This document shows, piece after piece, positions 35,058 through 53,219 of a stretch of DNA of 64,000 bases. The notes beneath the pieces are model-generated. The model saw only the letters and a list, made by a program, of their open reading frames with translations, had not been told where the DNA came from and did not search any database. The position numbers were made by a program, and so were the translations under genes. Origin of the DNA: an uncultured Candidatus Nitrosopumilus sp. (GTDB lineage: Archaea > Thermoproteota > Nitrososphaeria > Nitrososphaerales > Nitrosopumilaceae); assembly GCA_951812655.1 (NCBI GenBank), contig OX638319.1, forward strand, positions 930,001 to 994,000. The letters run 5' to 3'. Numbering within the stretch: the stretch's first letter is position 1; each line of letters opens with the position of its first letter.

Positions 35058-35660
35058 ATGGATACCGCCGAAGCGATAAACACAAGACGTGCGATAAAAA
35101 AATTCGACAGTACGTATAAGATGACTAAGCAACAGGTTGATTCTTTGATGGAATTGGCAATTCGTTCGCCTACAAGCTACAACCAGCAAAATTGGAGATT
35201 TATCACCGTTACTGATCAATCGGTAAAAGAACAGATTAGTAAAGCTGCACGTGATCAAGCTCAACCTTCGGATGGCTCACTTGTAATTATTTTGTGTGGA
35301 AACATGAACGCTTGGCAACAAGATCCTTTTCGATACTGGAAAAACTCTACTTTAGAAAAACAAGAACACGTGAAAAAAGCAATGCATACAAAATATGCTG
35401 AAAGTCCTCAAAATCAACGTGACGAGGCAATTCGCTCATGCGGATTTGCTGGTCAAACTATTATGCTGTCTGCAAGGCATATGGGCCTGGATTCTTGTCC
35501 TATGGTGGGTTTTGAATATGACGATCTGGCAAAAATAATTAATCTGCCTGATGATCATCTGATAGTCATGATGATAGTTGTTGGGAAAGCCTCCGAGCCT
35601 GCTGGTCCTAGAGGAGGGCAATTGCCACTTGATCAGGTTGTTTTTGAAAATAAATTTTAA
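35058..35660 (+). CDS. Nitroreductase-family FMN oxidoreductase
   Basis: A 200-residue protein with INTRRAIKKFD (FMN-phosphate Arg cluster), SPTSYNQQNWRFI and a late GKASEPAGPRGG segment, all typical of NfsA/NfsB-like flavoproteins. It would reduce nitro or quinone compounds with NAD(P)H. It has its own promoter region; no partner gene nearby. Confidence 0.9.
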   Translation: MDTAEAINTRRAIKKFDSTYKMTKQQVDSLMELAIRSPTSYNQQNWRFITVTDQSVKEQISKAARDQAQPSDGSLVIILCGNMNAWQQDPFRYWKNSTLEKQEHVKKAMHTKYAESPQNQRDEAIRSCGFAGQTIMLSARHMGLDSCPMVGFEYDDLAKIINLPDDHLIVMMIVVGKASEPAGPRGGQLPLDQVVFENKF

Positions 35661-49746: not shown

Positions 49747-50094
49747 TTAATGTCCTTTATTCATGAACAGATCCAACATGGTTCGTCCTTTGTCTGTTAT
49801 GGTATAGATCACGTTTACTCCCACTGATTCTTTTTTGATAAAGTTATAGTCCACACACAGGTGCAAGTAATTCAGAAATGACTTTTTCATTCTGATCTTT
49901 GACTTTGAGTACAGATTGGAGAATGTCATCGGAGTCCCTCTGAGCTGATATAGTAATTTCAGTAGTGATAATGTGCTGTAATCCTTTGTTTTTGCTCTTA
50001 CTGCATCCAGAATTTGTTCATCTCGCTTTATGATGAAATCCTCAAATTGATCTGCCACTTCGAGTGGCACGTATGTTAGTCTTGCTCGCATCAT
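49747..50094 (-). CDS. Winged-helix transcription regulator
   Basis: A 115-residue protein whose residues about 42-110 form a winged helix (LSLLKLLYQLRGTPMTFSNL, FLNYLHLCVDYNFIKKE, then a YTITDKGRTML wing). The start codon is overlapped by a perfect palindrome, so autoregulation is likely. It diverges from the PII-fusion gene, which may also be its target. No ligand domain is seen. Confidence 0.8.
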   Translation of the reverse strand: MMRARLTYVPLEVADQFEDFIIKRDEQILDAVRAKTKDYSTLSLLKLLYQLRGTPMTFSNLYSKSKIRMKKSFLNYLHLCVDYNFIKKESVGVNVIYTITDKGRTMLDLFMNKGH

Positions 50095-50110: not shown

Positions 50111-50259
50111 CATTACCTTATTATTCTTTAACTTGAGTATTGTTGATCTTTTTAGCTGATTTTTTTACACTTGATCGAAATTTTTGATGTGATTGTGATT
50201 TATTTTCAATTACAATAATCACCATTCATCATAAATAGGCCCTTTTTTGAAAATCATAT

Positions 50260-50844
50260 GTGAAAAAGATAGAGGCGATAGTTAGAAGAAAAAATTTTCC
50301 TGTCATTAAGACTGCCTTGAACACCATTGGAACGTTCATCATAGATAAGCGAAATTTGGATGATAGCAACATTTACGACGAATCAAAAGGTTCTCGTGTG
50401 GGTTCCACCGGATTAAAATCTGTACCTCTTGCAAAAATTGAGATGGTGGTTTCTGACATGGATGCGAGAAAAGTTGTTGAAATGATCTCAAAAAATTCTG
50501 GTTTATCTTCAACCCATGGCGGTAAAATCTTTGTTTCTGAAATGGAAGAAGTTGTTGACATGGATACCCTTGATGGAAAACAAGATCTTGAAATGACTTC
50601 AAAAGAAAAATTCAGTTCAGATCCACCTCTGCCAAAACGTAGTAGGTTTGTACCATTGCAGAAATTCACTTTGCACAAGTTGCAGGTATTGTATGAGGAA
50701 AACAAAGAAACGCTTCGAAGCGACTACCGTATAAAATCCTTCAGTGATTTTGTAAATTATTGTATAATGAAATCTGTACCCACCTTGGAAAAACAGCTAA
50801 AGAACCCCACCATCGTTTACGAAAATAATTTTGGCGGTTATTGA
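50260..50844 (+). CDS. PII protein with C-terminal ribbon-helix-helix-like extension
   Basis: A 194-residue protein, GTG start. Residues 1-112 follow the PII fold: KKIEAIVRRKNFPVIKTAL opening, then a T-loop region without the usual Tyr, and HGGKIFVSEMEEVVDM as the B-loop/GKIF block. Residues about 125-194 are extra: FVPLQKFTLHKLQVLYEEN, then IKSFSDFVNYCIM, a strand-helix-helix order like RHH DNA-binding domains. PII proteins signal nitrogen and energy status by binding ATP, ADP or 2-oxoglutarate. Combining this with a possible DNA-binding tail is unusual. The RHH call is tentative. Confidence 0.75.
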   Translation: MKKIEAIVRRKNFPVIKTALNTIGTFIIDKRNLDDSNIYDESKGSRVGSTGLKSVPLAKIEMVVSDMDARKVVEMISKNSGLSSTHGGKIFVSEMEEVVDMDTLDGKQDLEMTSKEKFSSDPPLPKRSRFVPLQKFTLHKLQVLYEENKETLRSDYRIKSFSDFVNYCIMKSVPTLEKQLKNPTIVYENNFGGY

Positions 50845-51074: not shown

Positions 51075-51404
51075 TTAGATCGTTCCTTCTCCTTCATTAC
51101 CTGTGGCGATATCTATGGCACGTAAAATCTGTGAAACAAAAATCTTGCCTACTCTTGCCTTGTTTTTGATGATGTCTATCACTTGATCCTCTTTTGTATC
51201 TGGAATTATTGCTATGATGTGGTATTTATCGTTAAATTGAGGTACAAAAATCTCGCTTCCTTTTGACGCGTGAATTTCAGGGCCCGGTTTTTTCCCTCTT
51301 CCTCTGACTTTGGAAACTGAAAGGCCTCCGATGCCTATTTCTTTCAGGCCTTCACTGATCGCCATGACATCATTTTTTCCTAATATTATTTCTATTCTAA
51401 GCAT
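51075..51404 (-). CDS. PII nitrogen-regulatory protein
   Basis: A 109-residue PII (GlnB/GlnK family). It opens LRIEIILGKNDVMAISEGL, has T-loop GRGKKPGPEIHASKGSEI where the modified Tyr-51 is missing, and ends KARVGKIFVSQILRAIDI. It therefore cannot be uridylylated there, and signalling would be by ligand binding. It is divergent from amt across 115 bases, the classical glnK-amt pairing. Confidence 0.92.
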   Translation of the reverse strand: MLRIEIILGKNDVMAISEGLKEIGIGGLSVSKVRGRGKKPGPEIHASKGSEIFVPQFNDKYHIIAIIPDTKEDQVIDIIKNKARVGKIFVSQILRAIDIATGNEGEGTI

Positions 51405-51454
51405 TTGATTACTGTATCTTCAATTACACAAATATAATTTCTGATTTTGCTAAT

Positions 51455-51471
51455 CAAATGATAATCATTTG
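51455..51471. promoter_or_regulatory. Palindrome between PII and amt
   Basis: CAAATGAT-A-ATCATTTG is a perfect 8-bp inverted repeat around one base, centred in the shared promoter region 51405-51519. It is a good candidate operator for joint control of both genes. The site is AT-rich, so chance cannot be excluded. Confidence 0.5.
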
Positions 51472-51519
51472 TATATCAAATTCAGACATCGTTATTAATT
51501 AAAACTTCAAATTTTTTCC

Positions 51520-52830
51520 ATGGTACTTGATTCTGGAGATACAGCATGGATGCTTGTGGCCGGAAGTTTGGTACTTCTTATGATTCCCGCACTGGGTCTG
51601 TTTGAATCTGGATTGCTGAGGAAAAAGAATGCAGCTTCAATTTTCATGCAGATCTTCTTTGGCTTGGCAATGCTGAGTGTAATGTGGTTCATTTTTGGAT
51701 TCAGCCTATCTTTTGGTGAATCTACTATGGGGTTGGTCGGTAGCATGGATTGGGTATTCCTTAAAGGCGTTCCTGCAGATGCTCCGTTAGAACAATATGC
51801 CCCAACTATTCCTGGTATGTTATTTGTGAAATTCCAATTAATGTTTGCAGCAATTACCCCTCTATTGCTTACCGGAACTATTGCTGAAAGGATGAAGTTT
51901 AGTTCATTTATAATATTTATTGCCGCATGGTCGATGCTGATCTATTATCCTCTGGTCCACTGGGTATGGGGAGGAGGTTGGTTAGCTCAACTCGGTGTTG
52001 TTGACTTTGCCGGCGGTATCGTAATCCATACGAGTGTTGGTATGGCTGCGCTAGCTGCCGCAATAGTGCTTGGCAAGAGAAGAAATTACGGTCCAGCTAT
52101 CATGATTCCGCATAGCATTCCTCTGGCTGTACTTGGTTCTTCTCTTTTATGGCTTGGGTGGTTTGGTTTTAATGCAGGAAGCGCGCTTGCAGCTTCAGGC
52201 GGTGTTGCTGGAAATACCGTAATAGTGACACACATGGCGTCGTCCGTTTCTGCTTTGATATGGGCTGGTCTGTCATGGATAAGAACCGGTAAACCTTCCG
52301 TAGTGGCAACCATTAACGGTGCGATAGCAGGACTTGCTGGAATTACGCCTGCATCTGGATTCGTAAGTGTTGAGCATGCATTTGTAATTGCCATAGCCAT
52401 AGGAGTGATCTCTTATTCAGGAGTGGTTTTGTTCAAAGAAAAATTGAAAATTGATGATGCACTTGATGTAAGTTCTGTACACGGCGTTGCAGGAATCGTC
52501 GGTGCGCTGGCAATAGGGCTATTTGCAAGCACTGCGATTAATCCTGGTGGCGTTGACGGGTTACTGTTTGGAAACCCTGATCAACTGTGGATCCAGGCCG
52601 TGGGCATTGGAGTTGCAGCTGTAATGGGATTCGGTGGAACTTGGATACTTCTGCAGATAATCAAGCATCTGATTGGAATTAGGGTTTCTCCGGAAGTCGA
52701 AGACATTGGTTTGGATATAAGCGAACACGCCGAGTCTGCATATTCTGATGAAGAAGAGTTCATGTTGGATATGGATGATTATACTGATGAACTAAAAGAT
52801 AATGATGAAATCTTGTTCAAAAAAAAATAG
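51520..52830 (+). CDS. amt: Amt ammonium transporter
   Basis: A 436-residue, 11-span channel. Both twin-histidine sites are present: GGIVIHTSVGM (first His) and SVHGVAGIVGALAIG (second His). It begins without a cleavable signal peptide. The last 45 residues are very acidic (SDEEEFMLDMDDYTDE) and may interact with PII or the basic membrane peptides. Ammonia uptake supplies ammonia oxidation and assimilation. Confidence 0.95.
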   Translation: MVLDSGDTAWMLVAGSLVLLMIPALGLFESGLLRKKNAASIFMQIFFGLAMLSVMWFIFGFSLSFGESTMGLVGSMDWVFLKGVPADAPLEQYAPTIPGMLFVKFQLMFAAITPLLLTGTIAERMKFSSFIIFIAAWSMLIYYPLVHWVWGGGWLAQLGVVDFAGGIVIHTSVGMAALAAAIVLGKRRNYGPAIMIPHSIPLAVLGSSLLWLGWFGFNAGSALAASGGVAGNTVIVTHMASSVSALIWAGLSWIRTGKPSVVATINGAIAGLAGITPASGFVSVEHAFVIAIAIGVISYSGVVLFKEKLKIDDALDVSSVHGVAGIVGALAIGLFASTAINPGGVDGLLFGNPDQLWIQAVGIGVAAVMGFGGTWILLQIIKHLIGIRVSPEVEDIGLDISEHAESAYSDEEEFMLDMDDYTDELKDNDEILFKKK

Positions 52831-52841
52831 GTTTGTGATTG

Positions 52842-53219
52842 ATGATGACTGTTGATTATGACGCACTCGCAAAACAGGTTCTTGCATTAGATTCCCAAGT
52901 GAGATTTGCGGGTGTAGCAAACAGTAAAGGTGAGATGGTGGCAGGTGGACAGAAAGATGATGTTGAAAAAATATTGGTCGGTGATGAGGTCAACATGTCA
53001 ATTCATTATGCATTACAAAAACGAGATCTGTATACTAATTTGGAATACAAGATTGGTCGTGAAAGATCATCTATCACAGAATATGATCTGGTCACGATGA
53101 TTAGCATTCCAATTAATTCCAATGAGCTATTTTTGATCAGCACTGAACCCCGTGCTGACTATTTGAAAATAATTGATTACGTTCATTCGTTGTTGAATTC
53201 TGATAAAGATACGGAGTAA
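52842..53219 (+). CDS. Roadblock-like paralogue 3, downstream of amt
   Basis: A protein of about 125 residues with QVRFAGVANSKGEMVAGG, a helix, KIGRERSSITEYD and LVTMISIPINSNELFLISTE, the same order as the 24061 and 30156 proteins. Eleven bases after the amt stop, so co-transcribed with it. ATG 52842 or 52845 is the start. It may be a partner of Amt or PII; this is inference from position. Confidence 0.7.
   Translation: MMTVDYDALAKQVLALDSQVRFAGVANSKGEMVAGGQKDDVEKILVGDEVNMSIHYALQKRDLYTNLEYKIGRERSSITEYDLVTMISIPINSNELFLISTEPRADYLKIIDYVHSLLNSDKDTE

Follow-up and report, generated by a model that had tools for sequence, protein, structure and literature searches.

The gene described here encodes a PII protein that carries an additional C-terminal tail, predicted to be a ribbon-helix-helix (RHH)-like domain, and lies in a 64,000-nucleotide stretch of DNA (the window) from an uncultured Candidatus Nitrosopumilus sp. 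(assembly GCA_951812655.1, contig OX638319.1, positions 930,001 to 994,000). We consider it likely, with a probability of about 0.72, that the product, termed PII-RHH, is an autoregulated one-component transcription factor that responds to nitrogen or energy state and serves the GlnK-linked (low-affinity) ammonium transporter. As a repeated 9-base site in the amt promoter is kept where the gene is kept, the protein is probably sensor and gene switch in one; its DNA binding, its ligand, its oligomeric state and the direction of control have not been shown. The fusion and its conservation, the prediction of an RHH-like tail, the conserved sites and the co-distribution of site and gene are shown by the comparisons below. 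Coordinates are given in Table 1.

Table 1. Features of the PII-RHH locus, with positions counted within the window.
Feature	Positions	Strand	Evidence or remark
Degenerate operator-like site CAATAATCA (TGATWATCA with 2 mismatches), immediately 5' of the PII-RHH TATA box	50213..50221	+	
Probable PII-RHH TATA box CATAAATA, conserved at about 30 nt 5' of the start codon	50230..50237	+	Alignment of upstream regions
PII-RHH gene, whole	50260..50844	+	GTG start, stop included, 194 aa
PII domain, residues 1-112 of the fusion protein	50260..50595	+	Pfam P-II, archaeal GlnK matches, PII fold
C-terminal RHH-like domain (predicted), residues 123-194, most conserved stretch RSRFVPLQKFTLHKLQVLYEENKETLRSDYRIKSFSDFVNYCIM	50626..50841	+	Conservation, tail model, RHH-dominated structural matches, profile-profile score higher than in any of 60 shuffles
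glnK-type PII gene, convergent with PII-RHH	51075..51404	-	Pfam P-II 53.6 bits, synteny
Putative operator site 1, TGCTAATCA with 1 mismatch, next to the core promoter of glnK	51448..51456	.	Comparative
Putative operator site 2, TGATAATCA, perfect, inside the palindrome CAAATGATAATCATTTG	51459..51467	.	Comparative
Putative operator site 3, TGTATATCA with 2 mismatches; the probable amt TATA region TTATTAAT lies about 11-13 bp downstream of it	51470..51478	.	
Ammonium transporter gene (amt), GlnK-linked type, long acidic C-terminal tail	51520..52830	+	Pfam Ammonium_transp 380 bits, type assigned from the literature

The open reading frame was confirmed as a real gene, its product consisting of a PII domain followed by a tail of about 70 C-terminal residues. 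A chance origin is excluded, because full-length homologues at 49-90% identity occur in many genomes; an assembly or frameshift artefact creating the tail was likewise ruled out, as length and reading frame are identical in many genomes. The PII part scored 40.7 bits against Pfam P-II (PF00543), above the curated cut-off of 25, and a sequence search of the PDB matched it to archaeal GlnK structures (E 1.6e-8). The AlphaFold model of the fusion showed the ferredoxin-like fold of PII (VIA Z about 11 against PII structures, model residues 1-104), and dN/dS values of 0.04-0.10 indicated strong selection on this part. The original prediction that the N-terminal 112 residues form a PII fold with the HGGKIFVS stretch kept therefore held by profile, GlnK matches and fold. 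In total, six PII-like genes were found in the genome, two of them in the window, namely PII-RHH and the glnK-type gene. One PII-like gene outside the window (L002, G000:C1:889172-889450) lies directly 3' of a gene that by eye resembles the bicarbonate transporter SbtA, suggesting an SbtA–SbtB-like pair.

The tail begins at about residue 123. Searching 300 genomes of the class, we found full-length homologues across the genus, in several more genera of the Nitrosopumilaceae and in a second family (f2); public contigs, mostly titled Nitrosopumilus, contained homologues at 52-90% identity. The tail was kept in every complete homologue, so that the search for relatives with both parts, which could have refuted the original prediction, did not. 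In distant homologues the tail was even the better conserved half, with about 56% identity in f2 versus 38% for PII, and the f2 fusion has a longer acidic linker between the two parts. The tail is under purifying selection (dN 0.03-0.10, with dS mostly saturated or near-saturated). Relatives consisting of the tail only, 57-70 aa long, were detected in two other families (f7 and f13), one being encoded in a gene region that looks virus-like; the tail is therefore an independent module. Beyond the class, 300 genomes of the phylum gave a single weak match, and a scan of viral contigs with the tail gave none. One stand-alone relative (L100, 3110-3322) is on a contig with a gene that by eye resembles a phage portal gene, a possible source of the fused domain.

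In the AlphaFold model of the full-length protein the tail consists of an unpaired N-terminal arm, a helix (residues 135-147), a short helix and a further helix (161-181). Modeling the tail alone gave helices at 13-25 and 39-59, and the first strand did not form in the monomer. The strand of an RHH protein forms only in the dimer, so two helices after an unpaired arm are what would be expected of a lone RHH chain. A structure search of the PDB with the tail model returned 14 rows with Z ≥ 2, nine of which were RHH proteins (ParB of pCXC100, Rv0298, CopASO, omega, PutA (PutA52; two entries), ORF56, CdbA and Arc). The best Z was only 4.6 and the Foldseek probability of 0.41 was not significant on its own; the matches thus support an RHH fold without proving it. 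Low structural scores are as expected for a two-helix monomer. As calmodulin and PNPase appeared at similar Z, the structural list alone does not settle the fold.

We also compared the profile of the tail with that of 17 native archaeal RHH_1 domains from relatives, using 60 column shuffles and a reversed profile as controls. The tail scored 19.1, the shuffles at most 15.4 (n = 60) and the reversed control 8.1. The alignment pairs RIKSFSDFVNYCIM with the GYSSRSEAIRDSV stretch; the match in helix B is weak, with SFSDFVN of the tail in register with SRSEAIR of the native domains, the helix-B pattern of the RHH superfamily being S-x-S-[DE]-h-h. Pfam and NCBIfam profile searches gave no match above cut-off for any fused tail, and only one stand-alone relative reached 14.1 bits, below cut-off, with RHH_5. 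Searching the PDB by sequence with the tail, or with two of its stand-alone relatives, yielded nothing informative. In a stand-alone relative, FKTVTLREKVIEEI is close to the strand-helix pattern of CopG. An RHH-like domain is accordingly a model-based prediction with weak structural matches, and no library names the tail. The original prediction that the extra residues, about 70 in number, form an RHH-like DNA-binding domain was supported, and the fold search did not refute it, giving two predicted helices and mostly RHH matches; DNA binding was not measured.

Evidence beyond that prediction came from the intergenic region between glnK and amt. Between genera this region was hardly alignable except for the motif TGATWATCA, which in Nitrosopumilus lies inside CAAATGATWATCATTTG. 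Among 63 unique intergenic regions of PII-RHH carriers the motif was perfect in 60 and had one mismatch in the other three. Most of the 63 contained further sites at ±11 bp from it, the usual form being an array of three sites. Three perfect copies were found in several species and eleven in one, all at exact 11-bp steps. The eleven copies of TGATAATCA (L171/L052, in genome G245, C101:59067-59185) share one glnK–amt intergenic region, an expansion seen in a single species.

The 1.67-Mb genome contains 48 copies of the perfect 9-mer, so that the chance for one such region is about 0.3%. Double sites with two mismatches or fewer are expected 0.03 times in the window, where the array yields two overlapping matches, and in the whole genome no double site other than the glnK–amt array had one mismatch or fewer. 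Weaker double sites elsewhere in this genome had no evident link and were treated as chance; the one at window position 35549 lies, in our own reading, inside a gene. These regulon scans were pattern searches only. In 95 genomes of the genus, exact double sites were present in 13, and all arrays but one were located at glnK–amt or upstream of PII-RHH; the reversed pattern gave no array in the same 95 genomes. A single exact double site (L192, genome G214, C14:25706) lies upstream of a gene that by eye resembles a cation/proton antiporter, and may be an extra target or chance.

The motif also occurs at the promoter of PII-RHH itself. Many relatives have TGATAATNA or the exact TGATAATCA at the position matching the window's site, about 47 bases before the start of PII-RHH and beside the TATA box. 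Upstream of PII-RHH, one pelagic lineage has a triple array with 11-bp spacing and f2 has two sites 11 bp apart. Autoregulation is part of our best reading, though there are no binding data and the window's own site is degenerate.

In carriers the usual gene order is PII-RHH, convergent glnK, and amt divergent from glnK. In f2, PII-RHH is divergent from another amt, while in one genus (g2) and part of the pelagic genomes it is apart from amt. By our own count, the GlnK-linked amt is present in 43 genomes of the window's genus, 42 of which also carry PII-RHH; in the sole exception amt is at a contig end. Twenty-five genomes of the genus have only the other amt; 23 of these are without PII-RHH, one carries it close to a contig end and one genome (G080) has a truncated copy. 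This co-occurrence alone is weak evidence, because a linked locus can go in one event. At two loci (L101, in G080, and L085) PII-RHH is truncated and glnK and amt are lost, as if one deletion took the middle. Two other neighbors were noted in the window: a small winged-helix-like protein (49747-50094, minus strand), encoded divergently from PII-RHH and adjoining the locus only in part of the genus, and a DUF6659 gene after amt (52839-53219, plus strand), which travels with amt in most carriers.

In genus g8, with an orthologous glnK–amt and no PII-RHH, the perfect site was found in none of 10 genomes, and in promoters of the f3/f5 type without PII-RHH in none of about 13. In g2, where PII-RHH is far from amt, six of seven carriers had the perfect site; the seventh had one mismatch. 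Two g2 genomes (G140 and G193) are without PII-RHH. In G193 the gene is gone, its two conserved neighbors are directly adjacent, and the glnK–amt region has no site with fewer than two mismatches, so that the operator has decayed. This natural deletion is our sharpest single piece of evidence, yet it is one case. G140, with an operator and no PII-RHH, was set aside as a counter-example; it is probably an assembly gap, as the neighbor genes of the locus are also missing from the assembly. G082 keeps PII-RHH, but its site has one mismatch. Absence of the motif in g8 and f3 may also reflect lineage history rather than the missing protein.

The DNA-binding half of the original prediction, a nitrogen sensor and transcription factor in one protein, thus gained independent promoter evidence; DNA binding itself and sensing both remain inference. 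Canonical ligand features of GlnK/GlnB are not met by the fusion. The equivalent of T-loop Gln39 is lost or unalignable, no residue-by-residue alignment of the T-loop with MJ0059 being possible, and at the equivalents of Arg101 and Arg103 the fusion has Asp or another residue (VVDMDT versus VVRVRT in the alignment with MJ0059). The residues for ATP and 2-oxoglutarate are largely gone, and a role as nitrogen sensor is therefore not shown; with several canonical ligand residues lost, it is possible that the PII part does not sense ATP or 2-oxoglutarate. Loss of the C-terminal Arg is not special to the fusion, since the window's ordinary GlnK and the paralogues are also without the two residues.

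In our reading, the N-terminal PII domain would trimerize and read a metabolic signal, and the C-terminal RHH domain would pair with that of a second copy to bind DNA. On comparative evidence, this domain may recognize TGATWATCA both between the divergent glnK and amt genes and next to the PII-RHH promoter, and expression of the GlnK-regulated transporter would thereby be coupled to nitrogen or energy state. For glnK, amt and PII-RHH alike, with core promoters identified by eye, the sites are positioned just outside BRE/TATA, which makes control of RNA-polymerase recruitment likely. In Nitrosopumilus maritimus, the transcript of the glnK-adjacent, long-tailed Amt drops on ammonium starvation and that of the other Amt does not (PMC9277239; consistent with PMC7490402). 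As the window's amt is also long-tailed, the simplest model is a regulator that either maintains expression of this transporter when ammonium is replete or shuts it off during starvation. Activation in replete cells that ceases once they starve would fit the reported drop; repression under starvation is nearly as likely. The name "Amt2, high affinity" was dropped for this transporter, as numbering is inconsistent among papers and the glnK-adjacent long-tailed type is the low-affinity, starvation-depressed one. PII proteins are trimers and RHH proteins are dimers. A bolder reading, possible and untested, is that the six RHH tails of two PII trimers join as three RHH dimers on three consecutive TGATWATCA sites at 11 bp, one helical turn apart, with the ligand on PII setting assembly. 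The three sites of the operator would then reflect the three-fold symmetry of PII; the reading is suggested by the three dimers that two trimers would give and the three sites of the operator.

Other explanations were considered. Another regulator, of the Lrp/AsnC or winged-helix type, might bind TGATWATCA, in which case the tail would be RHH-like and the sites real, with PII-RHH acting elsewhere. Many archaeal Lrp-type regulators bind A/T-rich palindromes, and the winged-helix-like gene is at hand in the window. However, the site tracks PII-RHH across genera, including the unlinked cases, and has decayed in the one clean deletion, while the winged-helix gene is a neighbor in only some genomes of the genus. 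Short palindromes recurring about once per helical turn, the pattern seen here, are moreover classic targets of RHH proteins, and we regard another regulator as unlikely. Also unlikely is a degenerate PII domain serving as a mere oligomerization scaffold in a regulator without a ligand of its own, which is compatible with DNA binding and contradicts the sensing part of our reading. It is favored by the absence of the 2-oxoglutarate-binding Gln from the T-loop and by Asp or another residue at the positions of the ATP-binding Arg of MJ0059; against it stand the same Arg loss in the ordinary GlnK and paralogues and the strong selection on the PII part.

Least probable, and in our view very unlikely, is a tail that does not bind DNA and works as a module for protein contacts or heteromerization, so that PII-RHH mixes with GlnK or docks on Amt. 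PII-RHH adjoins glnK and amt, PII proteins normally act through protein contacts, and Leu/Phe and Pro occupy first-strand positions that contact DNA in RHH proteins of the CopG type (register by eye). Nevertheless, the operator persists in g2 and part of the pelagic genomes, where the gene and amt are not immediate neighbors; the strand is flanked by basic residues; and the tail has stand-alone homologues, one of which lies in a virus-like region, a common setting for RHH proteins.

With GlnK/GlnB proteins (MJ0059, M. thermolithotrophicus GlnK1 and A. fulgidus GlnK2) PII-RHH shares the PII fold, homology over residues 1-104 and the glnK–amt neighborhood; it differs in the extra RHH-like domain, the altered T-loop and several ligand residues. 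Known PII proteins work via protein partners and do not bind DNA themselves. In cyanobacteria, PII likewise controls transcription through PII–PipX–NtcA, but acts there via two other proteins, whereas PII-RHH would hold sensor and DNA-binding part in one chain. CopG, Arc, omega and PutA52 resemble the tail in the strand-helix-helix order inferred for it, in weak structural matches and in the short palindromic sites at 11 bp that it would bind; the tail differs by about 10 residues, including a short helix, inserted between helices A and B, the absence of a library match above cut-off and the fusion to PII. NikR also combines an oligomeric ferredoxin-like sensor (ACT) with RHH pairs in one chain. 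In PII-RHH, by contrast, the domain order is reversed, PII replaces ACT and a trimer rather than a tetramer is expected; an ACT-type nickel sensor with an N-terminal RHH domain is not what this protein has, its sensor being PII and its RHH-like part C-terminal, and no sequence relation between the two was found. The nitrogen repressor known from methanogens, NrpR, controls the glnK1–amtB1 operon of Methanosarcina mazei (PMC10714827) and is like PII-RHH in role only. Its protein family is a separate one that responds to 2-oxoglutarate in its own way and uses a different operator. NikR is thus nearest in design and NrpR nearest in role, and PII-RHH is neither. In the literature, covered incompletely and with few subscription journals, we found no PII domain fused to a DNA-binding domain and no such motif; the parts are of known kinds, and their combination with a defined candidate operator is new.

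PII elsewhere signals to other proteins; here the sensor seems to be joined to the DNA-binding part. If this holds true, PII-RHH would be the first PII protein that is itself a DNA-binding transcription factor, and to our knowledge there is no earlier case. How a trimeric PII is combined with a dimeric RHH domain is also a puzzle of broad structural interest. Given the candidate operator, a single protein and a short piece of DNA would suffice for a direct test of the claim, which also connects to the fall of the GlnK-linked Amt transcript in ammonium-starved N. maritimus (PMC9277239).
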